From contig JAILOG010000001.1 of the NCBI GenBank assembly GCA_024690965.1, positions 124,001 to 188,000 on the forward strand: DNA of 64,000 nt. Direction: 5' to 3'. Both the position numbers and the translations under genes were made by a program. Of this stretch, positions 2,974 to 59,736 are shown one piece after another. This stretch comes from Clostridiales bacterium. Lineage in GTDB: Bacteria > Bacillota > Clostridia > Oscillospirales > Acutalibacteraceae. How positions within the stretch are numbered: the first letter of the stretch is position 1; every line of letters begins with the position of its first letter. The notes under the pieces were generated by a model. It had not been told where the DNA came from, ran no database searches, and saw only the letters and a program-made list of their open reading frames with translations.

Positions 2974-5900
2974 TTAAAACTTGTCAATAAGTTTGGCTAT
3001 AAATTTTTGTATTTGCGTCACGTCAAGCATATTAATTGTGCTGTCGCCGTTTACATCAGCGTTTTCGCTTTGCTTGGCTGTTAACTCAACAAGCTTTGCA
3101 ATATGCTTTTGTATTAGCGTGACATCAGACATTTTAATTTCGCCGTCTAAATCCGCGTCGCCCTTTATGACAGTATCACTGTCGGTGGGCTTATCGCTGT
3201 CGGTAGGTTTGTCGGTGTCTGTTACCGTTTTATCATCGGTATCAGGATTTACATCTGCGCTGTTTGTTAAAATATCGCTGCACTTCACCCTTATGATTTC
3301 GTTTACGGTGAATCCCTGCGCAATATAGCTGTCTATTTCATCAAAATCGGCACTGCACTGTTCAAGGTCGTAATAGCCTATTGCCTGATAAAATCCCTCT
3401 ACGGTGAGGTTAAGATCATCAAGCAGCTTTTTGTCAAACGATATTATAAGCGAGGCCGTGTCATCCTCTATAAGTATTACGCGGTAATCAAGTCCCAACG
3501 CATTGTTGGCTATAAGCCACGCATCTATGTTTTTCGCACCTTTTTTAAGATGCACTTTGTCGCCTAATTCAAAGTCGTAATGAACAATCGGTATGTCGCC
3601 GTCCGGGTCTTGTTCGGGCTTTTCGTGTGTAAGCGAGCTTATAGGCGCGTAGAAATAAAGAGAATACGGCTTGCCCGACTCAATTGCTGCTTTATATTTA
3701 TCGTAGTCTACTTCGTCGCTTTCTCTGTTGCAACCTATGACCTGCAAAAATCCGTCACAGTCAACACCAAGCTGTTTAAGCAAATCTGGACTTACCTCCA
3801 GCTTAAGCATAGCCACCTCTTCGTTTAAAGAAGCGATTTTATAATCAAGCACCATACCACTGTACCCGACCTCATCGTTTTCGCCGAGTTGACTGCCGTA
3901 TTTTAGATATACCGTATCACCAACCGAGAAAATCTCTTTATCTGTTTCGGTAGCTATATCATTGTCGGAGGGCATTTGTGCGGTATCGGTTTCAGCTGAC
4001 GAATCTGTGTCTATCGTATAGAATTCGGTATCTGTCAATAAACTTGTATCGGTAGTTGTGTCTGTTGTTGTATCGGTTTCTGTTTCTGTTGTTATATCCG
4101 TTGCCGTATCTGTTGCTGTATCCGATAAGGTATCTGTTGTTGTGTCTGTGGAAGTATCCTGCTCGGTGTCCGATAATGCTTCCGTATCGGTTATTGGAGG
4201 CGGTGCGTAATGCTCAAGGCAGGCGGTACTGATATCAAATATAAATTCACGTTTATTTCCTGAGATGTAATCGTAATAATCATCCGTATTATCCCGTGTT
4301 ATTCCAAAGCACGCCAAAAAGTCGGATATCGGCGTTTTTATGCTGCCGTATTCCAACCGTATCTTAAGCGTGGCAAAATGTCCCTGTACAGATACTGTCT
4401 CATAGTTAAGATCAAGTGCGCTGCTGCCTATTTTGTAAGCGTTTGTAAGTCTTGCGTCAGCCGCGAGCGTTACCGTGTCCCCCGCTTTAAAATCAGTTTC
4501 CCGCTGTGTGTGAACGTAGCCTTCAACTCCCCTGTAATCATAAACATTGTACACTTTTTCGCCTGCAACGTTTCTTACCGCCTGAACGGTATAATAATAC
4601 AGGCTGTCTTTAGGCGCGTTGTAAAGAATACATTCGCTACCCGTATATTCGGTATTCACAGTTGTCCATACGCTTCCGGTTGTACTGCGCATAAGAATAC
4701 GGTAAGCGTCGGCGTATTTTGATTTTGTCCATTTTATCTTAAGCCCCTGTTCACACTCGGTACAGGAAGTAATATGAGTTTCCCCCATCAGACAGCAATA
4801 TGCCACCACGGCTTCTGTGCCGTAAGATGTATGGCCGTTATACGATGAATATGGAACCACCTTATAATAATAGAGCGAATCGGTATCTACGTTTTTGTCT
4901 GTAAACCCACAGGAAAGCCCTGTTGGTACAGTCTGATACAACGTCCATTTATTTTCATTAAGTAAATGCCTGTAAACAAGATATCCGTTTGCGTTTGATA
5001 CGGTGTTCCATTTCAGTGTAATATCGCTCTCATTGCATACAGCGCTTAATCCAAGCGCTTGATTGCTGTCCACCATAAGATAAGAAGAAATTGAATATCC
5101 TATTGTGTCGTCTTTTCCGTCTTTTATTGTAACGGGATTATTAAGCGTGCCGCCCGCAAGCGTTTTTCCCGATTTACCCGCTGTTACTGTCATGCCTTTT
5201 ACTGTTACCGGCTTACCACTTGAAGAATCGCAGTATATTTTTGCGCCCCACGAATAATCGGTATACTCTTTACTGCCGAAAAGGCTTATATCGTCAAGCT
5301 TAAAATAAAACGTGGCTGTCTCGGGCTGTGATAAAGATGAAGATGAAACGCCGCTGAATGAGTATCCGTTATACGGCCTTTTGTCCGCGCCGTCAAACAA
5401 AACAAGCTTTTCGTAATCTCTTATAATACGCTTATTGTATATTTTCATTGAAACATCGTTCCTGTCGTACGCGCTCACCGTTACACCAAGAACCAAGTCG
5501 GGCATACCGACAATTATATCGCTGTCCCAATAAGTAAAATAGAATCTTTCAAATGATACGCTTCTAGATAACTGTGTTACGGGGCTCGCAGTTACAATTA
5601 TTTTGCTTTCAAAATTATCGCCCTGCGAAGTTGCGGCAATGCCCGGCAAAGACAAAGAACAGCAAACAGACGAATTCACGATATTGATAGTCGTAAGCTT
5701 TGTCAAACGCCCCTGAACAGAAACTTTATCTCCCGTATTCAAAAACGCGTAATCATTGTGATTTGCCGCCATTAACCAATATGTGCCTTTGTATTTTGAA
5801 TCATAACACGATGAATTGAATCCGCTTAAGTTAACAACATCCTCATACGGAAGAACGCACCATTCGGATAATTCGTCGGCGATGTTTGTAAGCTCTGTAT

Positions 5901-7197
5901 AAGATTCTGATGCAAAAGTCGTTTTGTATGATATAAACGGTCCAAGTGAAGAATCAAGTCCCGATACTCTTCCTATGGTATATTTGCGGTAAGTTTTACC
6001 GTTTATTGTTTTGCTGCCCACATCCGTAAACTGCCAGTTTGATGATTCGGCAAAATAGTTCGCGGAATATACCTTAAGGCTACCGTCAACGGTCAAATTC
6101 ATACCGCTTTTATACAAAGCAGCGTTATTAAGCGCGGAGTATTGCGATGACAGATTGACAGAATCGTACATAACCCAGCAATACCCCTGGTTTTTCCAGC
6201 TTTTGCCCCAGGAATTCGCCATTAAAAACGCGCCCTTCATTGTAACGCCGCCGAATACAGCCTCAATATTATCATCGTAGCCGATAATTGATACTGCGTG
6301 TCCGCCAACGGCATTTCCCTGAGCGGCTATCAATACGTAATCGCCTTTTTTGCCTATATCGCCGCTTTTGCTTGCCGTTGAATAAAACCATCTGTCGGAT
6401 TGTCCGCTTGCTATAACAACGTTGCCCGATAATATGGCATTTTTAATTTTATTAAGTATATTTTTCCCATCCGACGATGTAGTTAATTTGTGATCGTAGT
6501 CCTCCATATCGTACATATCGTAAGCGTCGGTACTTTTAAGGCGGTATTTAAGAGCGTCATACATTCCGTCCAAATCCCAGGATACCGTCTTTTTATTCAA
6601 GTTACCAGTGTGCCCGGAACCCAAAGCGCTGTCCTCAAATTTGCATTTGTCATATGTAACGGCGCCGTTTTCCGCTAAAATCCCGTAAACATTACTTGTT
6701 TTACCGCCTACAAAATTATATGTCCATTTAGGAGAAAAAGTATTTGAGTCATTCTTTGAGGGATCCCATGAATCGTCTATATGATATTTTTCAATATAGC
6801 GTGATACAGCATTGGAAAACTGCATATATGTAACTGACTCTGAAGCGCACGAGCCGATATTTCCCTGGTCGGTGATAGGAGGAAGATGCTTGTTGCCCCT
6901 CAAAGAATATGAAGAAGGCAACGCTTCTGCCTTTATTTTTGAAGAAGAGCCTTTTCTTATATGCGAGCCGCCCTCGGAATTATATATCTCCGCCGACTCT
7001 TTTATACTCTGCGCAAGCGTATCTTTTGCGGGATCATACTGTCGGCTGATCATTTGCGTGTTGCAAACGCCTCTTTGAGAGCTTTCGTTGCTGCCCTTAT
7101 CGTGCGAATCATACGCGGCTGCACCGCCCGGAAGGATTACTCCCAAAACGATAATAACACACAATATTATTGAAAAAAACTTATACTTGTTTCTCAT
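2974..7197 (-). CDS. Secreted papain-like (C1) cysteine protease with Fn3 domains, three repeated modules and a dockerin
   Basis: 1,407 residues. Signal peptide 1-28. Papain-like domain about 93-365 with oxyanion Gln111, catalytic Cys117 (GSCASES), His300 (GHAVSIIGYDD) and Asn328 (ANSWGKSW), so it should be active. Residues 370-700 form beta-rich domains resembling the lectin-like region often found after clostridial C1 domains. Two Fn3-like domains at about 714-800 and 808-897. A module of about 100 residues occurs three times (901-995, 1089-1189, 1208-1310), the first two separated by a Thr/Asp linker (1003-1088). Dockerin at 1345-1402 with two Ca loops (DADLDGEIKMSD, DVNGDSTINMLD). It would be exported and docked on a cohesin. 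The ribosome site before ATG 7197 is weak. Confidence 0.9.
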   Translation of the reverse strand: MRNKYKFFSIILCVIIVLGVILPGGAAAYDSHDKGSNESSQRGVCNTQMISRQYDPAKDTLAQSIKESAEIYNSEGGSHIRKGSSSKIKAEALPSSYSLRGNKHLPPITDQGNIGSCASESVTYMQFSNAVSRYIEKYHIDDSWDPSKNDSNTFSPKWTYNFVGGKTSNVYGILAENGAVTYDKCKFEDSALGSGHTGNLNKKTVSWDLDGMYDALKYRLKSTDAYDMYDMEDYDHKLTTSSDGKNILNKIKNAILSGNVVIASGQSDRWFYSTASKSGDIGKKGDYVLIAAQGNAVGGHAVSIIGYDDNIEAVFGGVTMKGAFLMANSWGKSWKNQGYCWVMYDSVNLSSQYSALNNAALYKSGMNLTVDGSLKVYSANYFAESSNWQFTDVGSKTINGKTYRKYTIGRVSGLDSSLGPFISYKTTFASESYTELTNIADELSEWCVLPYEDVVNLSGFNSSCYDSKYKGTYWLMAANHNDYAFLNTGDKVSVQGRLTKLTTINIVNSSVCCSLSLPGIAATSQGDNFESKIIVTASPVTQLSRSVSFERFYFTYWDSDIIVGMPDLVLGVTVSAYDRNDVSMKIYNKRIIRDYEKLVLFDGADKRPYNGYSFSGVSSSSLSQPETATFYFKLDDISLFGSKEYTDYSWGAKIYCDSSSGKPVTVKGMTVTAGKSGKTLAGGTLNNPVTIKDGKDDTIGYSISSYLMVDSNQALGLSAVCNESDITLKWNTVSNANGYLVYRHLLNENKWTLYQTVPTGLSCGFTDKNVDTDSLYYYKVVPYSSYNGHTSYGTEAVVAYCCLMGETHITSCTECEQGLKIKWTKSKYADAYRILMRSTTGSVWTTVNTEYTGSECILYNAPKDSLYYYTVQAVRNVAGEKVYNVYDYRGVEGYVHTQRETDFKAGDTVTLAADARLTNAYKIGSSALDLNYETVSVQGHFATLKIRLEYGSIKTPISDFLACFGITRDNTDDYYDYISGNKREFIFDISTACLEHYAPPPITDTEALSDTEQDTSTDTTTDTLSDTATDTATDITTETETDTTTDTTTDTSLLTDTEFYTIDTDSSAETDTAQMPSDNDIATETDKEIFSVGDTVYLKYGSQLGENDEVGYSGMVLDYKIASLNEEVAMLKLEVSPDLLKQLGVDCDGFLQVIGCNRESDEVDYDKYKAAIESGKPYSLYFYAPISSLTHEKPEQDPDGDIPIVHYDFELGDKVHLKKGAKNIDAWLIANNALGLDYRVILIEDDTASLIISFDKKLLDDLNLTVEGFYQAIGYYDLEQCSADFDEIDSYIAQGFTVNEIIRVKCSDILTNSADVNPDTDDKTVTDTDKPTDSDKPTDSDTVIKGDADLDGEIKMSDVTLIQKHIAKLVELTAKQSENADVNGDSTINMLDVTQIQKFIAKLIDKF

Positions 7198-7321: not shown

Positions 7322-9835
7322 TCAGCCGATTGTAGGTCCTAAAGAAGGAATAAGCTTTGCAAGGTATCTCTGAATAAGTGTAACGTCTGTCATAGAACCT
7401 TGACCGTCGCCGTCGCAGTCTGCATTTATTTTAGACATTGCGCCGTAAGACTCATAAGTTGAAAGCGCAGCTATAATCTTCTGAAGTGAAGTTACGTCTT
7501 CCATTTTAACCTCGCCGCTGCAGTCAACATCGCCGTAAAGCGGTTGTCCGCCGCTATTTTCAAATATAGCGTAAAGTGTAACGTTCTTCTGCGGCAATGA
7601 TGCCAAAACGCCTGTCATTCCAATGCCTGAGCCATCACGTGCGGTGTTCCATTCTTTAAATGTGCTGCCCGCAAGAACAGGTGTGGGAAGAACAACGTTC
7701 TCGCCCTTGATAGCCTGGAATGAATACATATCGTTGTAATCTACACCGTCTACCGTGATTGTAGCGCCGTTTGTGATAAGAGTAATAAACTGTGTATCAC
7801 CGTCGGAAATACGCTCTTCCGTGTTTGTGTCAACCTCTGTGTTATCTGATGTATCGCTGTCAGGTTGACCGCTTGATCTATAGTTGTTTTGACCGTCAAG
7901 TGTTTCTTCAAATCTTGAGCAAGTGTAAGTAGTATTGTTTCCGCCGAGGTTAATATCGGTATTATCCGATACGGGAAGCCACAAGGCAAGCAAACCGTTT
8001 TCATCGGCCTTTATCTGCTTGCCGGCAAAATACTCCTTGCCGCCGTAAGTTATGTGTCCCACAGGCTCATTAGGTGTGAGACCTGTAATTACGCACTGAT
8101 ATACTTTCTCTGTCTCGTTAAAGGCGTTTCTTGCAACAGCTGAAGTCGTTGGAACAGCTTGCACAAAATGAGCATAATCACCGTTTTCAACTTCGCTTTC
8201 ACCCTTTGCAACATGAACGTTACCACCGTAAATGCGAATGTCACCGTCATTCATAATATCTGTTGCGGCAACGCCGTAAGCGCCCTTAAGAGATACTATT
8301 CCGTCATATATTCTGAATACGTGAATCTCTTTCGCGGATACGCAAGCGCCTTTTTCGGCTGTTATGTCGAGCTTGCCGTCACGAACTGACAGATTAAGGT
8401 TTTCGCCTACAATGCCGCTGTTTTTAGCATTAAGCTTGATTTTAGCGTCGTTAATTTCTGTTTCCAATGAGCCGAGATCAATACAATTGTAAGCTTCAAT
8501 GCTCATCTCGCCACCCGTAAGTGTGTAAGAATTGCTTGCCTTTAAAGCAACAGTTTCTGTTTCGGAAGGAGCGTTTATTGCAAAGGTACCGGCAGTCATT
8601 TTGAAATCGTCGCACGTTACGGTGTTTTCCATATTTGCGCCGGAATGTTCTATGCTTACCTCAGCCTCTTCGCCTATCTCGAATGTGCTTACATCGCGTA
8701 TAGCGCTTGCCATTGAAGATTTTACATTCAATTTACCGCCTGTTACGCTAAGGCTGAATCTATTCGTATCTTTGATGTGATTGGGATCATCCTTGCTGTT
8801 AGATGCAATACCCCATCCGCGATACTCGTTTGTAACTCCGTCTTTTTCCTTTTCGTAGTCGCCGCCTGTAACTGAAAGTGTACCGCCCGCAATATTAATA
8901 CTACCACCGTTATATACTTTAAGCGCTGTTATCTTTGCCTGGCGCGTTTTGTTTTTATATTCTTCAGTATTTACAACTGTATTATCAATTTTATATGCCG
9001 GCAGCATATCATTATCAATTACAAGCTCACCGCCGTTTACATACACATCTTTTGCCTCTGCATGAGCGCATATAAGCTTACCGTCGTTCATCGTAACTGA
9101 ACCGCGTGTCGTTGTAATTCCCGTTGTTTGCCAATAGTCTTTTTCGTCTTCGTATAAGAAGTAGTTGTTGCTTCTGTCCTGAACAAGTGTGACTGTACCA
9201 CCGTTAAATTCAAAATCTCCTCCCATAAGTCCGCAGCCGAACAGATAGAGTATCATAAAACTGTCGTTTAACGAATTGCTGAGAGAATATAATCTTACAT
9301 TACCGTTGTCTTTTAAATTGTGTATACCGTTCATCCACGGGAATTCGTTTGTGCCTTCTTGTAAATATCTATCAAGCTTTATAATGTTTTCTCCCGAAAA
9401 ATAAATATTAACATTACACTCAGATTTGTTAACTATAAAGTCGGTAACGTCTCTTTTTAACGCCTGCACGTCTCTGAAAACGATATTAACATCACGTGTT
9501 GTACCTTCGGCGATAATTATTCGGAAGTTGCCTATGTAGGGTGCGCTGCCGCAATGTAAAGATATGTAATAATCACCGTTTACAGCCGTAAAAGGCGTAT
9601 CAAATATCGCACCAGTTACAACAATTTTATCACTTAATCTGTAGCCGGTGTTGTTAAATTCAAGATACCCCCCAAATTCATCGGTGCTTGATATGTTGAT
9701 ATCCTTTGCGCAGGTTCCCGGCGGCATTGAACCGACGGTTTGCTTACCGTTTTCCACAGCAAAAGCAGAAACGCAGCACATAAATACAAGCATCAAAGCC
9801 AAAGCTATGGAAATTATTTTTTTACTTACTTTCAT
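7322..9835 (-). CDS. Secreted beta-helix-like protein with InlB-type repeat and C-terminal dockerin
   Basis: 837 residues. Signal peptide 1-26 (cleavage after AFA). Residues about 200-560 carry repeated short beta-strand turns of the type GGxxxxxGGxLxV (MNDGKLICAHAEA, NIAGGTLSVTGG, LTGGEMSIEA, IRIYGGNVHV), typical of a right-handed beta-helix; similar helices in Clostridia bind pectin-like glycans, but no catalytic residues are recognisable. An Asp/Thr linker (655-680) is followed by an InlB/Flg_new-type repeat (about 683-760, ending VTLYAIFEN). Dockerin 767-829 with loops DVDCSGEVKMED and DCDGDGQGSMTD. GGAGGT precedes ATG 9835 at good distance. It has its own consensus promoter and a structured leader. 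Probably a carbohydrate-binding or adhesive component. Confidence 0.8.
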   Translation of the reverse strand: MKVSKKIISIALALMLVFMCCVSAFAVENGKQTVGSMPPGTCAKDINISSTDEFGGYLEFNNTGYRLSDKIVVTGAIFDTPFTAVNGDYYISLHCGSAPYIGNFRIIIAEGTTRDVNIVFRDVQALKRDVTDFIVNKSECNVNIYFSGENIIKLDRYLQEGTNEFPWMNGIHNLKDNGNVRLYSLSNSLNDSFMILYLFGCGLMGGDFEFNGGTVTLVQDRSNNYFLYEDEKDYWQTTGITTTRGSVTMNDGKLICAHAEAKDVYVNGGELVIDNDMLPAYKIDNTVVNTEEYKNKTRQAKITALKVYNGGSINIAGGTLSVTGGDYEKEKDGVTNEYRGWGIASNSKDDPNHIKDTNRFSLSVTGGKLNVKSSMASAIRDVSTFEIGEEAEVSIEHSGANMENTVTCDDFKMTAGTFAINAPSETETVALKASNSYTLTGGEMSIEAYNCIDLGSLETEINDAKIKLNAKNSGIVGENLNLSVRDGKLDITAEKGACVSAKEIHVFRIYDGIVSLKGAYGVAATDIMNDGDIRIYGGNVHVAKGESEVENGDYAHFVQAVPTTSAVARNAFNETEKVYQCVITGLTPNEPVGHITYGGKEYFAGKQIKADENGLLALWLPVSDNTDINLGGNNTTYTCSRFEETLDGQNNYRSSGQPDSDTSDNTEVDTNTEERISDGDTQFITLITNGATITVDGVDYNDMYSFQAIKGENVVLPTPVLAGSTFKEWNTARDGSGIGMTGVLASLPQKNVTLYAIFENSGGQPLYGDVDCSGEVKMEDVTSLQKIIAALSTYESYGAMSKINADCDGDGQGSMTDVTLIQRYLAKLIPSLGPTIG

Positions 9836-11595: not shown

Positions 11596-12609
11596 ATGAA
11601 AAAACGAATTGTATCATTGATGTGCGCTGTATTGGTCTTTCTGCCTATGCTGTTATCTGCAAACGCGCTTGAAAGCAAAGATGACTTTTCAGATCTGTTT
11701 TTCGTGCTTATGAAAGATTACACAGATGTAAACGAACTTCACGAAGGTCTCAGCCCGGAAACGTACAATTTACTTGGGACGACAACAAACGGGTTTCACA
11801 TAGCATACTGTGAATATTATCTTGAAGATGTTTTTGTCACCTGTTACAGTCCCAAAGGCGGCGATAATACTTATATTGCAGGCTCAAACTTTATTGAGAC
11901 GTCCGACTATGTCATAGTAGGCGGTCCTCATAAAGACACACCGTCTCGATTCGCCGTTTATTGTTTTAACGAAAACAAATGCTTCACCCTTGAGGACGCT
12001 GTAAAGGAAAAAGATATACCTTTCGGCGAAGTGGCGGACATCGTGAACAAACACGGCTGCGCGTATATATACGATAAGAGCACCGATATAACTGAAGCGT
12101 TAGATAAATCAGATATTTTCGCAAGCGGCTTACTTGATGCAAGGTTTTGCCAATATACCCACAGTAACGAAAGCTATTGCAGCATTTACGGTAAATATGA
12201 CAAATACTATCTTTTCTACGGATCTAACGGCACTGCTTCATGTGAATTTACATCGGAAATTATAGAAGACTTTGTTGTCATAGCCCCTGAAATAGAATCT
12301 CCTTATGATTTAGGTAAATACGTTTTTGACGGAGATAATATTTACACGCTTAAAGAGGCGTCTGAAAAAAGCCTATTCAAAATGAATGATGTCAAAGATT
12401 TAATCCCCAACATATATTTATGGGGGGATGTAAATGAAGACAATACAGTTGATATGGAAGATGTTGTATATATGCAGAAGGTTATGGCGAGACTGATAAT
12501 TTATCCTACAGACTACTTCTACTATGTAGCCAACGCAGACAGCAATTACTGTTTTGATATGTACGATATCGTGCTTGTTCAGCGCAAGATAGCAAAACTG
12601 TGCAAATAA
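11596..12609 (+). CDS. Small secreted dockerin protein with two copies of an unnamed ~90-residue module
   Basis: 337 residues. Signal peptide 1-24 (ends SANA). Two related modules follow, about 70-155 and 190-272: each begins with a YC..Y strand pair and ends in a motif of the form FxxDxxxYTLKEAxExxxFxxxDVxDLI (first copy CFTLEDAVKEKDIPFGEVADI). The same module occurs at 55380-55973 and probably at residues 310-385 of the 24879-26399 protein. C-terminal dockerin 275-335 with loops DVNEDNTVDMED and DSNYCFDMYD, the second less regular. AAGGAGG precedes ATG 11596. Function unknown; export and cohesin docking are predicted. Confidence 0.8.
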   Translation: MKKRIVSLMCAVLVFLPMLLSANALESKDDFSDLFFVLMKDYTDVNELHEGLSPETYNLLGTTTNGFHIAYCEYYLEDVFVTCYSPKGGDNTYIAGSNFIETSDYVIVGGPHKDTPSRFAVYCFNENKCFTLEDAVKEKDIPFGEVADIVNKHGCAYIYDKSTDITEALDKSDIFASGLLDARFCQYTHSNESYCSIYGKYDKYYLFYGSNGTASCEFTSEIIEDFVVIAPEIESPYDLGKYVFDGDNIYTLKEASEKSLFKMNDVKDLIPNIYLWGDVNEDNTVDMEDVVYMQKVMARLIIYPTDYFYYVANADSNYCFDMYDIVLVQRKIAKLCK

Positions 12610-14643: not shown

Positions 14644-15819
14644 TCACAAGTTCTGCAAAAGTCCCGTTGTTTCACATATTTTTCCGTCTTTTATATATAC
14701 TCTGGGTACACGCTTACCGACAAGGCAAACTATCTCGTAATTTATTGTGCCGCACAGCTTTGCAAGATCATCGCAGGAAACTACATCATCGCCGAAAACC
14801 GTAACGGTATCCCCCCGTTTAACGTTTGGTATATCCGTTATATCAGCCATAAGCTGGTCCATACAAACTCTGCCTGCTATAAGTGCTTTTTTGCCGTTTA
14901 CGGAAATGTATCCCCGGTTACCCAAAAGCCTGTTGTATCCGTCGGCGTAGCCTATCGGTACTGTTGCCAGAACAGTGGACTTGTCTGTGGTATATGTACA
15001 GCCGTAACTTACGTTTGTATTGCGCGGCACTTCTTTTATGTGAGATACAACAGCTTTTACTTTCATTGCCGGGCGCAGATCAAGCTTGTTCCTTACATTG
15101 GGTGAAGCCAGCCCGTAAAGTATTATGCCTGCCCTTACCATATCCATATGCGCCTGAGGATAATCGGCTATGGCGGCGCTGTTTGCGCAGTGGCGATATG
15201 TGAATTTTATACCGTTGTTTTCAAGCTTGCTTGATAAGTAATTGAAGCATTCAAGCTGTTTTTGTGTATATTCCTCTCCGCTTTCGCCATCGTCAGCAAG
15301 AGCAAAATGAGTAAACAGCCCTTCGGGTATCAGATTATCCATTGAGCAGATTTTCACAGCTTCAACGAAAGATTCATCTGCCTGCTCTTTGTTTTGACAA
15401 AGCAAGCCAATTCTTGTCATACCCGTATCAAGCTTTAAGTGGATCTTTATATCAACTCCGCATTTAACTGCCTGCTCAGAAAGCGCGAGTGCATAATCAA
15501 AAGAAAACACTGCCTGGGAAATATTATTCTCGCTGAGTGATTTCACCTCACATTCGGGGGTATAGCCAAGGATAAGGATCGGAAGGGTTATGTCGTTGTT
15601 TCTCAACTGCAAAGCTTCCTCTAAATTGCTTACGGCAAAAAAATCGGCGCCGAGTTTTTCATATTCTTTCGCGAGCATAACAGCGCCATGTCCGTATGCG
15701 TCTGCTTTTATAACGCACATAAGCTTGCTGTTACCTATTCGTGATCTTATTTGTTTATAATTATGCTTTATGGCGTCAAGGTCTATCTCTGCCCAAGCTC
15801 TTTTCAAAAAAACGCTCAT
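14644..15819 (-). CDS. alr: Alanine racemase
   Basis: PLP enzyme making D-alanine for peptidoglycan. 391 residues. N-terminal RAWAEIDLDAIKHNY, the PLP lysine in VIKADAYGHG near residue 39, the catalytic tyrosine in NVSYGCTYTT near 270, and RVCMDQLMADIT near 315 are all present. The ATG at 15819 fits the family N-terminus; an in-frame TTG at 15864 overlaps the mtnN stop and has no ribosome site. The AAAAGGAG ribosome site is separated from the ATG by a hairpin. The gene is co-linear with mtnN upstream and rimI downstream. Confidence 0.96.
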   Translation of the reverse strand: MSVFLKRAWAEIDLDAIKHNYKQIRSRIGNSKLMCVIKADAYGHGAVMLAKEYEKLGADFFAVSNLEEALQLRNNDITLPILILGYTPECEVKSLSENNISQAVFSFDYALALSEQAVKCGVDIKIHLKLDTGMTRIGLLCQNKEQADESFVEAVKICSMDNLIPEGLFTHFALADDGESGEEYTQKQLECFNYLSSKLENNGIKFTYRHCANSAAIADYPQAHMDMVRAGIILYGLASPNVRNKLDLRPAMKVKAVVSHIKEVPRNTNVSYGCTYTTDKSTVLATVPIGYADGYNRLLGNRGYISVNGKKALIAGRVCMDQLMADITDIPNVKRGDTVTVFGDDVVSCDDLAKLCGTINYEIVCLVGKRVPRVYIKDGKICETTGLLQNL

Positions 15820-15857
15820 ATCGGTCGCGGCAAATATTGTGCCGCTATTCTCCTTTT
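15817..15857 (-). promoter_or_regulatory. Ribosome site split from start codon by a hairpin (alr)
   Basis: Minus strand: AAAAGGAG (15857-15850), then AATA, then a stem GCGGC/GCCGC (15845-15841 with 15831-15827, 9-nt loop), then GACCGAT and ATG 15819. Linear distance 30 nt; with the 19-nt hairpin looped out it is 11 nt. No alternative start in the gap. Confidence 0.65.
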
Positions 15858-15860
15858 GTG

Positions 15861-16547
15861 TCAATGTTTATCTATATATTCAAGTACAACCTCTACCGCC
15901 TTTTGCGCGGACTCGCTCAAAAATCTTGTATAATCGTCCACCGAGCCGCCGTCAGCTGTGTCGCTTATGGCTCTTACAACTGCACAGGAGGTGTTGTTTA
16001 AATAGCAAACGTGATTTATGCTTCCGCTTTCCATATCGCAGGCAAGCGCGTTGAATTTTTCTTTCAGCATATTTTTAGTTGATTTATCGTTTAAAAATCT
16101 GTCAGCGCAGGCTAACGTGCCGTAAAACGTATTAATTCCTTTTTCTTTTGCATATTCCGCAATTTCTCTTGACGCGCTTCCTAAACACGGAATATGTACA
16201 ATATCAAGCCCAGATATTAACCCAAGCGGATCACCGAAAGCGGTGGTGTCCATATCATATTGCACCGTGTCTTTTGCAACAACAACATCACCGGGGTGCA
16301 ACTCAGAACTTACCGCGCCGGCTACACCTGTATTAATTATAACATCGGGAGAAAACTTTAATATCATTGTCTGCGTGCAAACTGCCGCAAAAACCTTGCC
16401 TATTCCGCATTTCGCAACTACAACGCTTTTGCCGTTGATCTTTCCGCTTGCAAACTCGATTCCGCCCCAGAGCGAGATCATTTTATCTTCTATGAGCGAT
16501 TTCAGCTTGTCAACTTCTACACTCATCGCGCCTATTATTCCTATCAT
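15861..16547 (-). CDS. mtnN: 5'-methylthioadenosine/S-adenosylhomocysteine nucleosidase
   Basis: Cleaves adenine from S-adenosylhomocysteine and methylthioadenosine; with LuxS directly upstream it forms the SAH-to-homocysteine detoxification route that also yields the AI-2 precursor. 228 residues. N-terminal MIGIIGAMSVEVDKLK, VVAKCGIGKVFAA, TGVAGAV, and the active-site region CDMESGSINHVCYL with SDTADG near the C-terminus match the Pfs/MtnN family. The catalytic Glu in IGAMSVEVD and the Asp in ISDTADG are visible. ATG 16547 is preferred over an in-frame TTG at 16556. Its strong ribosome site lies behind a hairpin. Confidence 0.95.
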   Translation of the reverse strand: MIGIIGAMSVEVDKLKSLIEDKMISLWGGIEFASGKINGKSVVVAKCGIGKVFAAVCTQTMILKFSPDVIINTGVAGAVSSELHPGDVVVAKDTVQYDMDTTAFGDPLGLISGLDIVHIPCLGSASREIAEYAKEKGINTFYGTLACADRFLNDKSTKNMLKEKFNALACDMESGSINHVCYLNNTSCAVVRAISDTADGGSVDDYTRFLSESAQKAVEVVLEYIDKH

Positions 16548-16590
16548 ACAGCACAAAGCACCCGCTTTTTCAAGCGAACGCTTCTCCTTT
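16545..16590 (-). promoter_or_regulatory. Ribosome site split from start codon by a hairpin (mtnN)
   Basis: Minus strand: AAAGGAG (16590-16584) abuts a 28-nt hairpin (16583-16556): outer AAGC/GCTT, a 3x3 internal loop, inner CGCTT/AAGCG closed by a GAAA tetraloop. Eight nt then lead to ATG 16547. Linear distance is 36 nt, 8 nt when folded. Confidence 0.65.
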
Positions 16591-16602
16591 CAAAAATATG
16601 CT

Positions 16603-17052
16603 TTAATAATTAAAATTATTATTCCGCGAGTCAAGAACAGCCAAATACTTTTCACATTCGTCTACTGCGCTTTTCAGGTCAAGTGAACGGTAATTGCCGC
16701 ACTCAATCTCACTGCATCCGAAAACCTCACCCTTGTGTCCTATACTGCTTTTAAGCGCGTTTTTAACACTTTCAAGTACGCGCGCATTATCGGCGTTCCT
16801 TATAAGAAGATAAAATCCCGTTTGGCAGCCCATAGGTCCGAAATATATGACATCATCCGCGATGTCGCTGTTTCTCAAATAAGTAGCCATAAGATGTTCA
16901 ATTGTGTGCATAGCGTTGTTTGAAAGATAATCTCCCATATTGGGTTTCTTAAATCTCAGGTCGTACGTGGTTATATCGCCGTCTATACGGGATATATAAA
17001 TTCCCTCTTTCAGTTTTGTGTGGTCAACCTTAAAGCTTTCAATTTTGTTCAT
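16603..17052 (-). CDS. luxS: S-ribosylhomocysteine lyase LuxS
   Basis: Splits S-ribosylhomocysteine into homocysteine and DPD, the AI-2 precursor. 149 residues. N-terminal MNKIESFKVDHTKLKEGIY, metal ligands in HTIEHLMATYLRN (two His) and the catalytic/metal cysteine in FGCSEIECGNY are intact. The family N-terminus fixes the start at ATG 17052, although the frame is open to a GTG at 17103 that contains the ribosome site. A consensus promoter lies at 17132-17160, so luxS starts its own transcript, followed by mtnN and alr. Confidence 0.97.
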   Translation of the reverse strand: MNKIESFKVDHTKLKEGIYISRIDGDITTYDLRFKKPNMGDYLSNNAMHTIEHLMATYLRNSDIADDVIYFGPMGCQTGFYLLIRNADNARVLESVKNALKSSIGHKGEVFGCSEIECGNYRSLDLKSAVDECEKYLAVLDSRNNNFNY

Positions 17053-17100
17053 TATATTAAAACCCGGCAATAAGCGCAGTGCAAATTTGCCGTTCCCTTT
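17050..17100 (-). promoter_or_regulatory. Ribosome site split from start codon by a hairpin (luxS)
   Basis: Minus strand: AAAGGG (17100-17095), two A residues, then a 6-bp stem CGGCAA/TTGCCG (17092-17087 with 17070-17065) around a 16-nt loop, then 12 nt to ATG 17052. Linear distance 42 nt, 14 nt with the hairpin looped out. Confidence 0.55.
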
Positions 17101-17131
17101 CACTTGTATACATTAGTAAAATGCATTGCTA

Positions 17132-20423: not shown

Positions 20424-21923
20424 TCAGCCCTTGGCTTCTACCGGAAAATGCTCTGTAAGTTTTGCTATATACTGCTGAATCAATACAACATCAGCCATAG
20501 TTACCTGCTCGTTTCCGTCTGTATCTCCAAGTTTCATTTGAGTCTCGTTAAAAGTGACAAGTTTTGCTATTTCTTTTTGTATCATAACAACGTCGTCCAT
20601 TGTCACTTTACCATCACCTGTCACATCACCGTAAATCAGCTTATCTACATCAGTGTTTTCTGTATCGGTGTTTTTAACATCAGAGTCCGTATTATCTGTC
20701 TCGGAATCTTTCATCGACGGCTCATCGCCATCGTAAACTATAACAGTAATTGTATGAAGAATCATTCTCCCGTTAAAAAGGATCACGCAATATGTGGCGG
20801 TGTACTCTCCCTCTTTTACCGGAACACCTCTATAACCTGCCTCAGCATTGCCCCAAGTATATTCCATACCTTCTGGGATCTCGCCGTTTATATATTCAAT
20901 ATCATAATATGAATCATCGTGACCGTCTTTAAAGTGTATATGGGCATCTTCATTTATTTTTACGCGGACAGTCTCGCTTGATTCTTCAAATTCATCACTC
21001 ACTACCAAAATTTTAAATGTATAATAAATTATTTTACCGTTTTCAAGAGTGACTTTAAACGCAATATCATATCTGCCCATCCGCGTAGGTGTTCCGTAAA
21101 TACTGAGTTCATTATCCTCCGCGCTGCTCCATTCCATACCCTCGGGCAGCTCGCCTTCAATAAACTCCGTCTCTATTATTTCAGAGCCGTCAGAGTTGTC
21201 ATAATCCCACTCAAGATAAGTCTCTTCTCCTACCTGCGCATTGCATTCCATGCTGTCATTTTCAGGCAACGGCGCGCCTTGTTCAACCACAATGACCGTA
21301 ATTGTATGCACGATTACCCTGCCGTCATATAGTGTAATACGATAAATAGCCGTGTATTCACCTGTATTTGCGGGTTTTGCGTAATAATAGGGTTTAACAC
21401 TATAATTCCAAACAAGCGTCATATCGGGCATATCGCCGCTTACTAATTCCACTTTATAGTAACTAGCAATACCGGAATCAATGTCAAAATTAACTTTTGC
21501 ATCTTCATTTTGGTGCAAATAAACCGTTTGGTCTGAAAAAATAACGCCGTCTGTTTTTATCAAAATCTCATAAGAGTAATTAAATGATTCTCCGTTATCA
21601 AGCGTTACCTTAAACTGAAGCACATAATTGCCTGCCTTTGCGGGCGTACCGTAAATATGCAGTTTTTGAATGTTCTTATAGTCCCAATCCATTCCCTCGG
21701 GGATTTCTCCATGGTTAAGTTCAATCTCTTTTATCTTAGCACCGTTAAGGTCAACAGTCCATTCAAGGTCCGTTTTTTCGCCTACGGTCACCTCAAACAT
21801 CCCATAATCTTCGTATTCTGCCATAATCTTATCGTTTATAAGCGCCGTTGCCGAAACAGGCAACATACATATTATCATAACGGCTGCCAATAAAAACGAT
21901 AATACTTTTTTGCTTTTTACCAT
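20424..21923 (-). CDS. Secreted protein with four Ig-like (He_PIG-type) domains in ABAB order and a dockerin
   Basis: 499 residues. Signal peptide 1-27. Four beta-sandwich repeats of about 95 residues follow. Domains 1 and 3 share LEW near the start, then GELPEGMEW-type and IYGTPxxxGxY motifs. Domains 2 and 4 share NEDA..., YYxxEYINGEIP/ELVSGDMP and GEYTAxYxxxLxxGRxIxHTITVIV. A Thr/Asp linker leads to a dockerin (about 430-492) with loops DVTGDGKVTMDD and DTDGNEQVTMAD. No catalytic motif is seen, so an adhesive or structural role is likely. ATG 21923 is chosen because it starts the signal peptide and follows a GGGGT site; upstream in-frame codons lie between promoter and start. Confidence 0.85.
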   Translation of the reverse strand: MVKSKKVLSFLLAAVMIICMLPVSATALINDKIMAEYEDYGMFEVTVGEKTDLEWTVDLNGAKIKEIELNHGEIPEGMDWDYKNIQKLHIYGTPAKAGNYVLQFKVTLDNGESFNYSYEILIKTDGVIFSDQTVYLHQNEDAKVNFDIDSGIASYYKVELVSGDMPDMTLVWNYSVKPYYYAKPANTGEYTAIYRITLYDGRVIVHTITVIVVEQGAPLPENDSMECNAQVGEETYLEWDYDNSDGSEIIETEFIEGELPEGMEWSSAEDNELSIYGTPTRMGRYDIAFKVTLENGKIIYYTFKILVVSDEFEESSETVRVKINEDAHIHFKDGHDDSYYDIEYINGEIPEGMEYTWGNAEAGYRGVPVKEGEYTATYCVILFNGRMILHTITVIVYDGDEPSMKDSETDNTDSDVKNTDTENTDVDKLIYGDVTGDGKVTMDDVVMIQKEIAKLVTFNETQMKLGDTDGNEQVTMADVVLIQQYIAKLTEHFPVEAKG

Positions 21924-21999
21924 TTTAATACCCCGTTTACAAAATATTGTTTCTTTGCGTGAAAAAGCACAATAATTCTCTGATTTTCCACACAGCAAA

Positions 22000-24878: not shown

Positions 24879-26399
24879 TCAAACAGGTTTTGCTTCCATA
24901 AGATTAGGTTCCGCACTTTTAACAATATCCAGTTTTATAAGCTCTTCTATTGTGTCAAGTACATTTTGCTTGCTGTGCTCAGAGAGTGTAAGCATAAGAA
25001 TTTGGGTGTATTTGCTCTCGTCACGAAGTTTTTTATCCTCGGAAATATTGGGATTATTTCTCTGCTCCAAAAGCCTCACTCTTGTAGCGTCAGTCAAGTC
25101 AGTTACCTCTATTATACCGTCTATTCCGAATTGAGAAGGTTCATATACGGCAAGCATTCTACTTGCTTCATTTGTAAGGCACACAAGCACCGTGTTATCC
25201 TCAAATTCATTGTCTAATGTATATGTAGCTCTCCAATACATATGCAGTTTAAATGCCAATTCTCTAAATATTTCATCTGAAATCAGCTTTTCTTTGTACG
25301 CGTCTTCAATTGAAACATACCTGTCCCCTATAAGCAAGTACTTTTCCTGCCCGGGTGATGAACAGTAATATATATAATTACCGATCACTTTTTTTACATT
25401 GATTGCAGGTGTAGCGGAACCGTAATAATCGCAACGAACAATCATTGCACCGTTACTCAGCGTATCGTAAAATTTAGCGTCAAACAATTTATCGAAGTTC
25501 TTAAGTAACGCTTCTTTATCGCTGTCCGATATTGGGTTAGATTTTTCATACGCTGTTTCTATCTTCTTTATAGTTTCGCTGTCTGTATTGCGTGGCTCAA
25601 GAAAAGCATGACTATCTGACTCTTTTCCGCATTTACCGCTGTCTGACAACTTTGCAATATACCTCTGTAGCGCAACAACATCTTCAAGATCCAGAACCAG
25701 ACCCTCTCCCGTAATGTCTCCGCAAGTACGGCATACGGTGCAATCATAGATCTGTGCTATATGCTTTTGAAGCGCGACAACATCTTCCAAATTGATTTTT
25801 CCGTCATGGTTGGTGTCACCGAAACACGGGCGATCCGGTATTACGTCGTTCGCATACGCTTTATAATGGTGAATATACATAGGTTGAGCTACCATAATAT
25901 AATCTAATTTTTCCAACTCTTTTACTACTCTGAGAACGTTTTCTTTGCTCTTTTCACAGAGAGTCAATTCCAAAATCTGATGAAATTTATTAATATTAAA
26001 TTCGTTGCCTTCTTCAAATGTACCTTTTCTTATTATGCTTACATAGTATTGAGTCAAATCTTTTACTTCTTTTATGCCGCTGACAGAAAAGCTGTCTTTT
26101 GTGTATATTTTAGCTTTTATGCTTACATCATGCATGAGCACAATTCCCACTTTATCGTCCGCAAACTCATCTTCTAAAGTGGCGTTACAATACTCTTTTT
26201 GGTCGGGTTCTATCGTTTCGTCCATATCAAACAATTCGATAAATTCATCCGAGAAAACATTCCCCCCTACAACCGGGATTTGTTCATCTTCCGAATTGGC
26301 GTGCGCGTGCAGCTCAGGCTTTGATATCCCAACTGTGGCGCACAAAGCAACACTGACAATCAAACTTGCCGCCGATATCAATAATTTCTTAATTTTCAT
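24879..26399 (-). CDS. Secreted protein with two subtilisin-propeptide-like (I9-type) domains flanking an internal dockerin
   Basis: 506 residues. Signal peptide 1-32. Two clearly related domains lie at about 74-180 and 393-500. Each contains LxxEFxDxxVxxxL, a GIxEVxDLT segment and a closing helix plus strand: QILELTLCEKSKENVLRVV then ELEKLDYIMVAQPMY, against QILMLTLSEHSKQNVLDTI then ELIKLDIVKSAEPNL. The ending with A(E/Q)P(N/M) is the hallmark of peptidase S8 propeptides. No protease domain follows. A Cys-rich dockerin sits between them (193-255; loops DTNHDGKINLED and DITGEGLVLDLED). Residues 310-385 resemble the YTLKEA module. It could be a docked protease inhibitor or foldase; this is inference. 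AGAAGGG precedes ATG 26399. Confidence 0.75.
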   Translation of the reverse strand: MKIKKLLISAASLIVSVALCATVGISKPELHAHANSEDEQIPVVGGNVFSDEFIELFDMDETIEPDQKEYCNATLEDEFADDKVGIVLMHDVSIKAKIYTKDSFSVSGIKEVKDLTQYYVSIIRKGTFEEGNEFNINKFHQILELTLCEKSKENVLRVVKELEKLDYIMVAQPMYIHHYKAYANDVIPDRPCFGDTNHDGKINLEDVVALQKHIAQIYDCTVCRTCGDITGEGLVLDLEDVVALQRYIAKLSDSGKCGKESDSHAFLEPRNTDSETIKKIETAYEKSNPISDSDKEALLKNFDKLFDAKFYDTLSNGAMIVRCDYYGSATPAINVKKVIGNYIYYCSSPGQEKYLLIGDRYVSIEDAYKEKLISDEIFRELAFKLHMYWRATYTLDNEFEDNTVLVCLTNEASRMLAVYEPSQFGIDGIIEVTDLTDATRVRLLEQRNNPNISEDKKLRDESKYTQILMLTLSEHSKQNVLDTIEELIKLDIVKSAEPNLMEAKPV

Positions 26400-26516
26400 A
26401 ATAGACCCTTCTTTCTTTAACAATCAAGTTAACATTTTGCAATTTTTTTACCTCTGTTATATAAACAATTAGGTATGCCGTTTTTAGACAAAGAAACAAA
26501 ATGTTCTTGCACTTTT

Positions 26517-30762: not shown

Positions 30763-30815
30763 AACACATTCAAATACCCCAACGCAAAACTAAAACGCAG
30801 GGGTATTAACTCCTT
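30760..30815 (-). promoter_or_regulatory. Ribosome site split from start codon by a hairpin (U32 peptidase)
   Basis: Minus strand: AAGGAG (30815-30810), TT, then AATACCCC (30807-30800) pairing perfectly with GGGGTATT (30780-30773) around a 19-nt loop, then 10 nt to ATG 30762. Linear distance 47 nt; 12 nt with the hairpin looped out. An in-frame TAG in the loop excludes an earlier start. Confidence 0.7.
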
Positions 30816-30820
30816 ATCGG

Positions 30821-32917: not shown

Positions 32918-32967
32918 AATTCTGTTTTTCCAAAAGCGACAAATTCAGTGCCGTTTTGTATTCCTTT
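32915..32967 (-). promoter_or_regulatory. Ribosome site split from start codon by a hairpin (DJ-1 gene)
   Basis: Minus strand: AAAGGAA (32967-32961), TA, then CAAAA-CGGCA (32958-32949) pairing with TGTCG-(C)-TTTTG (32941-32931), one bulge and one G-U pair, then 13 nt to ATG 32917. A weak GGAA 12 nt before the ATG is an alternative site. Confidence 0.5.
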
Positions 32968-38874: not shown

Positions 38875-38911
38875 TGTTTTTTGTGCGTTTCGCTTTAAAA
38901 CGCTCTCCTCT
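38872..38911 (-). promoter_or_regulatory. Ribosome site split from start codon by a hairpin (ackA)
   Basis: Minus strand: AGAGGAG (38911-38905), A, then GCGTTT (38903-38898) pairing with AAACGC (38890-38885) around a 7-nt loop, then ACAAAAAACA and ATG 38874. Linear distance 30 nt, 11 nt when looped out. No second ribosome site lies in the A-rich stretch. Confidence 0.7.
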
Positions 38912-39018
38912 CTTTTGTATTTAAAAAAATAATATTGCGTATTTTTGACACATATAATATAATATTACAATAATTGAAAAATTTCAACCGTTACAAATAA
39001 ATTTTTCCAGAAGGGAAG

Positions 39019-43523: not shown

Positions 43524-46034
43524 TCAGAATTTTTCTATAAGTTTAGCAATATATTTTTGTATTGTAGTTACATCAAGCATAGTTATATCGTCGTCAGCAT
43601 TTACGTCTGCAAGCTTTTTCTGTGCGGGTGTAAACTGTGAAAGCTTTGCAATATACTTTTGCAAAAGCACAACGTCCTCCATTGTAACAACACCGTCACC
43701 GTTTGGGTCTCCGAGAATGCCATCGGGTTTATCGGAATCGGTGGGCTTTTCGGTATCAGTAGATTGTTCGCTGTCGGTATGCGTTTCAATGTTTGTGTCC
43801 TGACTGTCCAAAGATGTAAATTTTATTTTATTTTCGTTTGCATACTTTTCTGCATATGAACCTGAATAGCCGCTGATGACCAAATCATTACATTCAATAA
43901 ACGCGGTATCGTTTATGTTTGTCACGCTTTTAGGTATCGTTACGCTTACAAGATTAGAACAATACAGAAATGCGCAGAATTCTATGGTTGTCACGCCGTC
44001 AGGAATCACAATGCTTTCAAGACACTTACAACTTCTGAAACAGTAGCTTTTGATACTTTTAAGGCTGTTAGGAAGAGTTACGCTTTTTAGGTTTTTGCAA
44101 TCGGCAAATGCGTCAGACTCTATGCTTGTCACGCCATATGGAATCACGATGCTTTCTAAGCTTGCGCAGCTTTGAAAACAGTAGTTTTCCATACTTTTAA
44201 GGCTTTTCGGAAGCGTCACGCTTTTTAAGTTTTTGCAATCGGCAAACGCGCAATAATCAATACATTCAACACCATTGGGAATAATTACGCTTTCAAGATT
44301 TTCACAACCCCAGAAACAGTGATCTCTCATATTTACCACACTTTCGGGAATATACACGCTTTTTACATTTGTTAAAGCACAAAAAGCATAGCCGCCTATA
44401 CTTGTTACACCACTTTCGATTTTTACGGCTTTTATATCATCGGCGTACGGGAACCAAGGTGTATCAACGTGTTTCAGCCAATTATCCATATCACCGGTAC
44501 CGGTTATTGTAAGCGTACCGGTGTCCATCTCCAGCTTCCATGTCAGGCTATCACCGCATTTTCCAAATGGATTATCCAAAGGAACAAACTTAATGCCGTT
44601 ATTATCAGCGTACTCATGCATATAAGAGCCAAAATATCCGTAAATTGTTAAATCTTCTATAATAAACGCTTCATTTCCTATGCTTTTTACACTTTCAGGT
44701 ACGGTTATGCTTTTAAGAGCTTCACAGTGCGCGAAAGCACGTTCACCTATGCTTTCAACTCTGTCGGGGATATTAATACTCTCAAGATTCAAACACATAT
44801 CAAAGGCGCATTTGCCTATACTTTTCAACCCTGAGGGCAAAGTAATGCTTTTTAATTCACTGCAGCATGAAAAACAATTATCGGGAATTTGAGTAACTCC
44901 TTCGGGGATTGTCGCGGTTTTAAGGCTCCTGCAACCGAAAAACGAATTATCCCCGATGCTTGTTATGCTGTCAGGCATGGTAACATTTTCAAGCATTTCA
45001 CAACTGTAAAATGCATACCCGCATATTGTTTCGGTTCCGTCTTTTATTTCATATGCTGTACAGGTTTCTTTAACAGCAATAAGATATTTTCCGATATACA
45101 GCGCGTCGCCTTCCCAATTCTGTTCGTCCTGATAATAAGCCGTTGCATCAAACAAATTCCTCGATACGCCCGTTACTCCGTCGCCCAACGTTATTTTCGC
45201 CAGAAGCTCACATGAATCAAAGTTTTCAGGCATAATGGCTACGTTGTCAGGTACTGTTATCTCTTTTAAATTCTTACAAATCATAAATGCTCGTGTTTCA
45301 ATGGTTCTAACTCCACCGGGTACAGTATATGACTCATCGGTTTTGCCTGACGGATAGCAAATTAATGCGGTTTTGTCTTTGTTAAACAATACACCGTCAA
45401 CGGATGAAAACTCAGTGTTTCCGCTTTTAACCTCTATGCTTTCAAGACCGACGCAGGGATAAAATGCGCTTCCTTCTACAGTTTTTAAACCCGCGGGTAA
45501 TTCTAACGTTTTAAGTGATTCACACTCCGCAAAAGCATTGTAACCGATAATTGTCAACGTGTCCGGCAAAGATATGTTTTCCAAACCCGAACAATGAAAA
45601 AACGCTTCATGTTCTATGCTCTGCAAGCCTTCTGAAATTTTGACGTTTTTTAATTTTTTGCAGTTTCCAAACGCAAAGGCAGCTAAGTTTTTTACACTGG
45701 CTGGTATAGTTACATCCGTAACATTGTTAAATCCCGCAAAAGCACTAACACCGATCTCGGTTATACCGTTTTCGATAACTATGGATACAGTGCCTGACCG
45801 TAAACAAGTCAAGGTACTCAAGGCACTGAAATCACTATCATCAATGATGATTCGGTTTATCACGCCTTCGCCGCTCAACGTAAGCACGCCATCTTCGCTC
45901 AGGCTATAAGTAATGTTTTCACCAAAACTGATATCCGGCCATGAATAATTCGCGCTTGCACTCTCCGGCAGGGATATATACACCCCCGATGTAAGCGCAA
46001 GTGTCAAAACAAATGCAAGAACTTTTTTTAGCAT
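43524..46034 (-). CDS. Secreted BspA-like leucine-rich-repeat protein with dockerin
   Basis: 836 residues. Signal peptide 1-28 (ends ASA). Many LRR_5 (BspA-type) repeats of about 23 residues with the core AFxxCxxLxxVxIPxxVxxI fill about 70-480 and 520-720, split by a short beta domain (GDSLTWKLEMDTGTLTITGTG) that also opens the protein. After a Thr/Asp linker (about 745-770) the dockerin (775-834) has loops DPNGDGVVTMED and DVNADDDITMLD. BspA repeats mediate adhesion to host or microbial proteins; the dockerin would place it on a cohesin. AAAGGAG precedes ATG 46034. Its promoter shares an upstream box with the 24879-26399 gene. Confidence 0.92.
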   Translation of the reverse strand: MLKKVLAFVLTLALTSGVYISLPESASANYSWPDISFGENITYSLSEDGVLTLSGEGVINRIIIDDSDFSALSTLTCLRSGTVSIVIENGITEIGVSAFAGFNNVTDVTIPASVKNLAAFAFGNCKKLKNVKISEGLQSIEHEAFFHCSGLENISLPDTLTIIGYNAFAECESLKTLELPAGLKTVEGSAFYPCVGLESIEVKSGNTEFSSVDGVLFNKDKTALICYPSGKTDESYTVPGGVRTIETRAFMICKNLKEITVPDNVAIMPENFDSCELLAKITLGDGVTGVSRNLFDATAYYQDEQNWEGDALYIGKYLIAVKETCTAYEIKDGTETICGYAFYSCEMLENVTMPDSITSIGDNSFFGCRSLKTATIPEGVTQIPDNCFSCCSELKSITLPSGLKSIGKCAFDMCLNLESINIPDRVESIGERAFAHCEALKSITVPESVKSIGNEAFIIEDLTIYGYFGSYMHEYADNNGIKFVPLDNPFGKCGDSLTWKLEMDTGTLTITGTGDMDNWLKHVDTPWFPYADDIKAVKIESGVTSIGGYAFCALTNVKSVYIPESVVNMRDHCFWGCENLESVIIPNGVECIDYCAFADCKNLKSVTLPKSLKSMENYCFQSCASLESIVIPYGVTSIESDAFADCKNLKSVTLPNSLKSIKSYCFRSCKCLESIVIPDGVTTIEFCAFLYCSNLVSVTIPKSVTNINDTAFIECNDLVISGYSGSYAEKYANENKIKFTSLDSQDTNIETHTDSEQSTDTEKPTDSDKPDGILGDPNGDGVVTMEDVVLLQKYIAKLSQFTPAQKKLADVNADDDITMLDVTTIQKYIAKLIEKF

Positions 46035-55379: not shown

Positions 55380-55973
55380 ATGAAAAAATTATTCTCAATT
55401 TTACTATTGGCTTTGCTTATATTATCTTCATTGACTATTAACGCATTTGCAGAAGAAATCGGTTAAGAGGATGTTATTAGGCAAAAGATAGACAGCCGCA
55501 TTGAAGCGTATTTGGAAAATTTAGGCTTGGAAAACTTTGATTTTGTTTACAGGATTAAAGGAAATGTTAATGACTGTGTTATTTTTCACGGTGGCAGTAA
55601 CGCGTATTCTACAGGTTTCTTTTCTCAAGTTATTAACGGGTACCTTATTACTGTTGGCGGGGTTTTCAGCCCGGACAACTTGGGTTGGTATATTTTTGAC
55701 GGTGCAAACATTTACACGCTTAAAGAAGCTGTAGATAAAAGTATATTTAAAATGTCAGATGCTGCTGATATAGTCATCGCAAATCTTTTGGGAGATGTAA
55801 CATTAGATAAAAGAATTGATATGACTGATGTAACAGAGCTTCAAAAATACCTGGCAGGCTTATCAAAATTGGAAGATATGAATTATCCGACTCACGCTTC
55901 CGATGCAGACCAAAACGGAGAGGTTAATATGTATGACGTTGTTATAATCCAGCGTATAATCGCAAAGCTGTAA
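55380..55973 (+). pseudogene. Broken small dockerin gene (in-frame TAA after the signal peptide)
   Basis: ATG 55380 follows AAGGAG and starts a signal peptide (MKKLFSILLLALLILSS, ending AFA). At 55464-55466 a TAA interrupts the frame after EEIG; the same frame then continues to 55973 with EDVIRQKIDSRIEAYLENLG, one copy of the YTLKEA module (about 60-130) and a dockerin with loops DVTLDKRIDMTD and DADQNGEVNMYD. It is a shorter relative of the 11596-12609 gene, lacking one module copy. A recent nonsense change or a sequencing error both fit. A restart at TTG 55512 would give a protein without a signal peptide. Confidence 0.8.
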
Positions 55974-59686: not shown

Positions 59687-59736
59687 AATATTCAGTATTC
59701 GGACGGGCGAAATATGCGCCAATCCGTCTTCCTTCC
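59684..59736 (-). promoter_or_regulatory. Possible split ribosome site with hairpin (guaD)
   Basis: Minus strand: GGAAGGAA (59736-59729), then a hairpin with GGCG/CGCC (59720-59717 with 59709-59706) extended by CGGA/TCCG, then 13 nt to ATG 59686. Ambiguous because TTG 59722 in the stem is itself at normal spacing. Confidence 0.4.

Follow-up and report, generated by a model that had tools for sequence, protein, structure and literature searches.

Predicted hairpin-bridged ribosome-binding sites of the phage T4 type on chromosomal genes of a genus of uncultured Clostridia

Introduction

Gene finding and the design of ribosome-binding sites follow the rule that the Shine-Dalgarno (SD) sequence lies about 5–10 nt from the start codon. 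In Escherichia coli thrS the SD adjoins the AUG, and a hairpin lies between this SD and a single-stranded stretch farther upstream; the arrangement is used for autoregulation. The ribosome accommodates the long hairpin of this split ribosome-binding site without unfolding it (PMC3936740). The closest described counterparts of the arrangement analyzed here are genes 25 and 38 of phage T4, a precedent correctly named in the original prediction, where a hairpin shortens an SD spacing of 27 nt to 11 nt and one of 22 nt to 5 nt, respectively; in experiments the hairpin restored initiation, and its destabilization lowered initiation (PMC3014915). For these split (accommodated) ribosome-binding sites of T4, PMC3014915 describes the work of Nivinskas et al. 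(1999) and Malys and Nivinskas (2009).

A literature search covering open-access papers turned up no description of a bacterium with many bridged genes. The mechanism is known from T4, and its employment throughout a bacterial genome would be new as far as the open-access literature shows. Here, we report that at least two dozen ordinary chromosomal genes in one genus of uncultured gut or rumen Clostridia carry the bridged layout according to predicted structures.

Materials and Methods

The window, which is the whole stretch of 64,000 nucleotides that was analyzed, is part of a genome of 1.89 Mb in 20 contigs (G000), whose closest relatives by public records are metagenome-assembled rumen or gut Clostridia. 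A 16S rRNA gene was not found in the G000 assembly. Comparisons included a sister species of the same genus (G001), whose proteins are mostly 90–100% identical to those of G000, and a third species that is a congener of G000 (G002). The scan sample of 1.38 Mb represented two species (1.07 of the 1.89 Mb of G000 and 0.31 Mb of G002). The control sample consisted of stretches from nine other genera in the same family. Genes for the scan were called by a simple codon-usage caller, and those with an ATG start were evaluated. Distant-SD-only genes had no SD match of at least 4 nt at a spacing of 2–14 nt, and a distant SD was a match of at least 5 nt at a spacing of 20–60 nt outside any upstream gene. 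SD-to-start gaps were counted from the SD core, and p values for single gaps refer to dinucleotide shuffles.

Many predicted secreted proteins of the window contain paired, mostly C-terminal dockerin-like repeats of the GDVNGDGKVTMDDVVLIQKYIAKL type (positions 2974–7197, 7322–9835, 11596–12609, 20424–21998, 24879–26423, 43524–46034, 50959–55221, and 55512–55973), and in several of them leucine-rich BspA-like or protease-like parts occur as well. These features suggest a cellulosome-like surface system.

Results

Seven genes of the window (alr, mtnN, luxS, and the genes for an AEC permease, a U32 peptidase, a DJ-1 family protein, and AckA) have their sole good SD 24–47 nt from the start, and folding predicts one dominant hairpin in each of the seven gaps. 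For alr, mtnN, and luxS, which are located on the minus strand, the original prediction had placed the only strong SD 30–42 nt from the start, and the measured distances of 30, 36, and 41 nt bear this out. The alr SD AAAGGAG (15850–15856) is 30 nt from the ATG at 15819, with a predicted hairpin GCGGCA/TGCCGC at 15827–15845 (−10.2 kcal/mol, p = 0.008). In mtnN, the SD AAAGGAG (16584–16590) and the ATG at 16547 are 36 nt apart, and the gap folds into a 12-bp hairpin with a GAAA loop (16556–16583; −12.8 kcal/mol, p = 0.010). The luxS SD GAAAGGGA (17094–17101), which is AAAAGGAG in G001 and TTGGAGG in G002, is found 41 nt from the ATG at 17052; its hairpin CGGCAA/TTGCCG (17065–17092, p = 0.10) has an AGTGCT/AGCATT stem in its place in G002. 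The computed looped-out spacings of 10, 9, and 12 nt for the three genes agree within a few nt with the 11, 8, and 14 nt claimed originally. In G001 the alr stem is identical and changes are confined to the loop and linker. The G001 loop (L106) contains an in-frame ATG 11 nt past the SD where G000 has ATA, and judged from the sequence translation of alr could start inside the hairpin in G001. This ATG makes alr the most doubtful of the three genes.

The same layout had been claimed for the other four genes, and it is indeed present there. The AEC permease gene on the plus strand has its SD GAAAGGAG (1241–1248) 24 nt from the ATG and a GCGGG/CCCGC hairpin at 1250–1264 (p = 0.006). On the minus strand, the U32 peptidase SD TAAGGAG (30810–30816) is 47 nt from the ATG, and a 12-bp hairpin fills 30773–30807 (−16.2 kcal/mol, p < 0.002), with a different hairpin in G002. 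The DJ-1 SD AAAGGA (32962–32967, minus strand) is 44 nt from its ATG; the outer arms of its hairpin (32931–32958, p = 0.052) read CAAAACG/CGcTTTTG, and CTCAAAG/CTTTGAG in G001. For ackA, the SD GAGAGGAG (38905–38912, minus strand) is 30 nt from the ATG, with the hairpin GCGTTTT/GAAACGC at 38885–38903 (p = 0.018); G002 has an unrelated 13-bp hairpin here, and the other genera listed have an ordinary SD. The positions originally assigned to these genes mark their SDs and not their starts, which are at 1273, 30762, 32917, and 38874, respectively. The luxS and DJ-1 hairpins are weak when taken alone, and their case depends on the sister species G001. A further gene for which bridging had been suggested with reservation, guaD (59686–59722, minus strand), is a poor case and was rejected, as its open reading frame starts with an in-frame TTG at 59722 at ordinary spacing from the SD.

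The original prediction had proposed to fold such gaps against shuffled sequence throughout the genome and to search relatives for compensatory changes. Distant-SD-only genes accounted for 28 of the 888 ATG genes in the 1.38 Mb sample of the genus, and 11 of these 28 gaps folded better than 95% of their dinucleotide shuffles (p < 0.05), with 1.4 expected (binomial 4.7e-8). In the nine control genera only 7 of 464 genes were of the distant-SD-only type and none of the seven was structured; the difference from the genus (Fisher 0.02) involves small counts and few distant-SD genes in the controls. The window genes had been chosen by eye and the fair test is that on the rows outside the window, where 9 of 24 distant-SD genes were structured and 1.2 were expected (exact binomial 1.3e-6). 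The last 20 stretches, which had not been used in forming the idea, yielded four further distant-SD genes, and the gaps of three of these were structured. A loose architecture scan that allowed several start codons per gene gave a modest excess (26 versus 14.5 in G000 and 9 versus 7.1 in G002), because wrong starts dilute the signal. Weak single hairpins included those of prmA, remA, luxS, and the U32 peptidase gene of G002 (−2.1).

One of the 11 structured matches (L077:15885, from G002) contains a long stem followed by a T-rich stretch, and its counterpart in G000 (L247) resembles a terminator. In both, the stem lies upstream of a fumarate-hydratase-like gene, between an SD-like sequence and the start, and it may be an intrinsic terminator or attenuator. 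L077:15885 was left out of the clear cases, and the significance of the scan survives its removal. Terminators in general were rejected as the source of the stems, as a T-run follows just 4 of 49. For a bridged secreted-protein gene (L020:13675 and L161), the best G001 match found shares only 71% protein identity, with a near-identical leader hairpin, and this sequence pattern suggests a paralogous family with a common leader.

All 11 scan hairpins begin 0–3 nt past the SD and end 5–15 nt before the AUG, although their selection involved no position filter. Stable folds in shuffled gaps meet the position class (a ≤ 4, b 5–15) 29% of the time (P = 1e-6). Among 47 bridged sequences from the three species, part of which had been selected with a loose position filter, the raw spacing is 22–58 nt and the looped-out spacing has a median of 11 nt (IQR 9–12). 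Ordinary genes of G000 have a median SD spacing of 8 nt. The tight looped-out spacing together with the position of the hairpins thus points to spacing restoration specifically, which an arbitrary regulatory hairpin would not predict.

Fifteen gaps compared between G000 and G001 differ by 62 substitutions and several indels. The summed hairpin energy in G001 was −139.7, compared with −108.8 ± 10.2 under random changes matched in number and type (0 of 1,000 as low). Of the two directions of this test, the forward one alone is unaffected by selection bias. A pair-by-pair count of covariation against the G000 structures was not significant (12 broken pairs versus 15.3 expected), in part because the register of the helix shifts in DJ-1 and ppa. 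Clear cases are the gap of a glmU-like gene, where a U-G pair became U-A and a G-U pair A-U in G001, pair-preserving substitutions in mtnN and ackA, and DJ-1, in which the two outer arms have both been rewritten.

In G002, the order SD, hairpin, AUG is kept in seven genes (ackA, luxS, the U32 peptidase gene, gltX, and those for a ROK kinase, an OadB-like subunit, and PcnA), whose stems are unlike those of G000, and the layout of these genes is present across all three species. The claim that structure recurs while stems and loops vary held, with no motif common across genes and unrelated stems in G002. An ordinary SD is found in G002 in front of alr, prmA, ppa, plsY, and the DJ-1, glmU-like, and flavin reductase genes, and mtnN has just a short G-rich run nearby. 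It follows from this per-gene alternation that the spacer of a gene is either ordinary or bridged by a hairpin. Among the listed relatives with a readable start, ackA, gltX, and the U32 peptidase gene are bridged only in this genus.

Discussion

The most probable explanation, held here with good confidence, is that an estimated 1–4% of the genes of the genus have constitutive, split translation-initiation regions of the T4 gene 25/38 type. The SD would pair with the 16S rRNA, and the hairpin, starting 0–4 nt past the SD, would loop out the extra 15–45 nt and bring the AUG to an effective distance of about 9–12 nt. The bridged layout would then be a constitutive, mechanical alternative to an ordinary spacer. 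Selection apparently acts only on the presence and position of the hairpin and not on its sequence, so that stems turn over and a gene bridged in one species may have ordinary spacing in another. The gap-bridging reading of the original prediction is supported by the stability of the gaps over shuffled sequence, the constrained hairpin position, the conservation of stability in G001, and the reuse of the layout with other stems in G002. Layout, excess stability, position constraint, conservation, and restriction to the genus within the sample were all obtained by computation. We infer that the RNA folds into the hairpin inside the cell, that 30S subunits accommodate the folded RNA, and that translation begins at the named AUG.

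The alternative that survives best, although it is unlikely, regards the hairpins as neutral relics, i.e., inverted repeats that arose in spacers by mutation (template switching), confer no benefit, and are tolerated since looping out hides them. It is in line with the unrelated sequences between genes and species and with the alternation of hairpin and ordinary SD among species, and as the origin of the hairpins it is compatible with split initiation regions. The energy test in G001, however, indicates that stability is maintained once a hairpin exists, seven genes are bridged in three species, and the neutral explanation is silent on why other genera are without the layout.

Hairpins close to starts are often regulatory, and each initiation region might contain a site or switch for a protein, a metabolite, or temperature, which would be plausible for luxS, mtnN, and ackA. 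This is a very unlikely account of the whole set, as the genes, apart from a few 8-mers, share no motif in their loops or stems, gene functions are mixed, hairpins are lost or replaced among species of the genus, and the SD is unpaired. A search of the window against Rfam at the gathering threshold returned two tRNAs as the only matches and no known structured RNA (riboswitch, leader, or thermometer). The suggested regulation by RNA-binding proteins, temperature, or helicases finds no backing, as loops and stems have no motif in common across genes and the set of hairpin-bearing genes varies by species, and constitutive spacing restoration fits better than regulation.

Highly improbable is a role of short upstream open reading frames, in which a TTG or GTG at normal SD spacing would start a mini-ORF ending on the real start and cause coupling or attenuation. 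In G000, mtnN and luxS do have out-of-frame TTG mini-ORFs at good SD spacing whose stops overlap the ATG (ATGA, TAATG), and alr has an out-of-frame TTG at the long end of the spacing, again with an overlapping stop. Yet mini-ORFs whose start has a usable spacing are present in 16 of 49 bridged sequences and in 18.7 of the shuffled ones, the AEC, U32, ackA, DJ-1, prmA, and degT genes are without a mini-ORF in G000, the luxS TTG is CTG in G001 so that the start is lost, and a conserved short ORF running from the SD was not found. The least probable explanation is that starts are annotated wrongly, with initiation at an in-frame, often non-AUG codon at normal spacing and the "hairpin" encoding an N-terminal extension: candidate codons are an in-frame ATA (G000) or ATG (G001) 11 nt past the SD of alr, ATC in gltX, and CTG in luxS, but 25 of 49 bridged sequences have an open frame between SD and ATG (27.3 expected), in-frame ATG, GTG, or TTG codons in gaps number 1 versus 6.5 expected (rare starts 8 versus 7.2), DJ-1 and U32 have in-frame stops, and the constraints on hairpin position and stability would find no explanation.

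If split initiation regions are indeed used on many housekeeping genes, the ribosome reads the three-dimensional rather than the linear distance between SD and start, and bridged starts will be misplaced or missed by gene callers. Dozens of natural constructs, together with their variants in the sister species, are available for testing how the 30S subunit accommodates structure. It is conceivable, and proposed here tentatively, that hairpin-bridged initiation is this lineage's routine second design of ribosome-binding site, freely exchanged with ordinary spacers, perhaps by virtue of a lineage-specific property of the 30S subunit. Loss of ribosomal protein S1 was considered as a cause and rejected: S1-domain proteins are about as numerous as in the relatives, and one of them is a four-domain protein with an open frame of 705 aa.

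With ordinary SD initiation in Firmicutes the bridged genes share a strong SD of the AAGGAGG type, which several G002 genes use where their G000 counterparts are bridged, but the spacing is about 8 nt in the former and 22–58 nt in the latter. E. coli thrS is similar in that a hairpin is accommodated inside a discontinuous binding site, and differs in that this hairpin is not located between SD and AUG and that the arrangement serves autoregulation. The likeness to T4 genes 25 and 38 is closest. As there, the SD is too distant with no other SD at normal spacing, the predicted structure lies wholly between SD and AUG, looping it out restores a functional spacing (5 and 11 nt in the two T4 genes), and the arrangement is young and clade-limited, with the structure retained in close relatives and missing in distant ones. 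The requirement for the stem was tested experimentally in T4, and we infer it for this genus. In T4, two phage genes are concerned, whereas here the layout extends to at least two dozen chromosomal genes of bacteria and its stems turn over rapidly.
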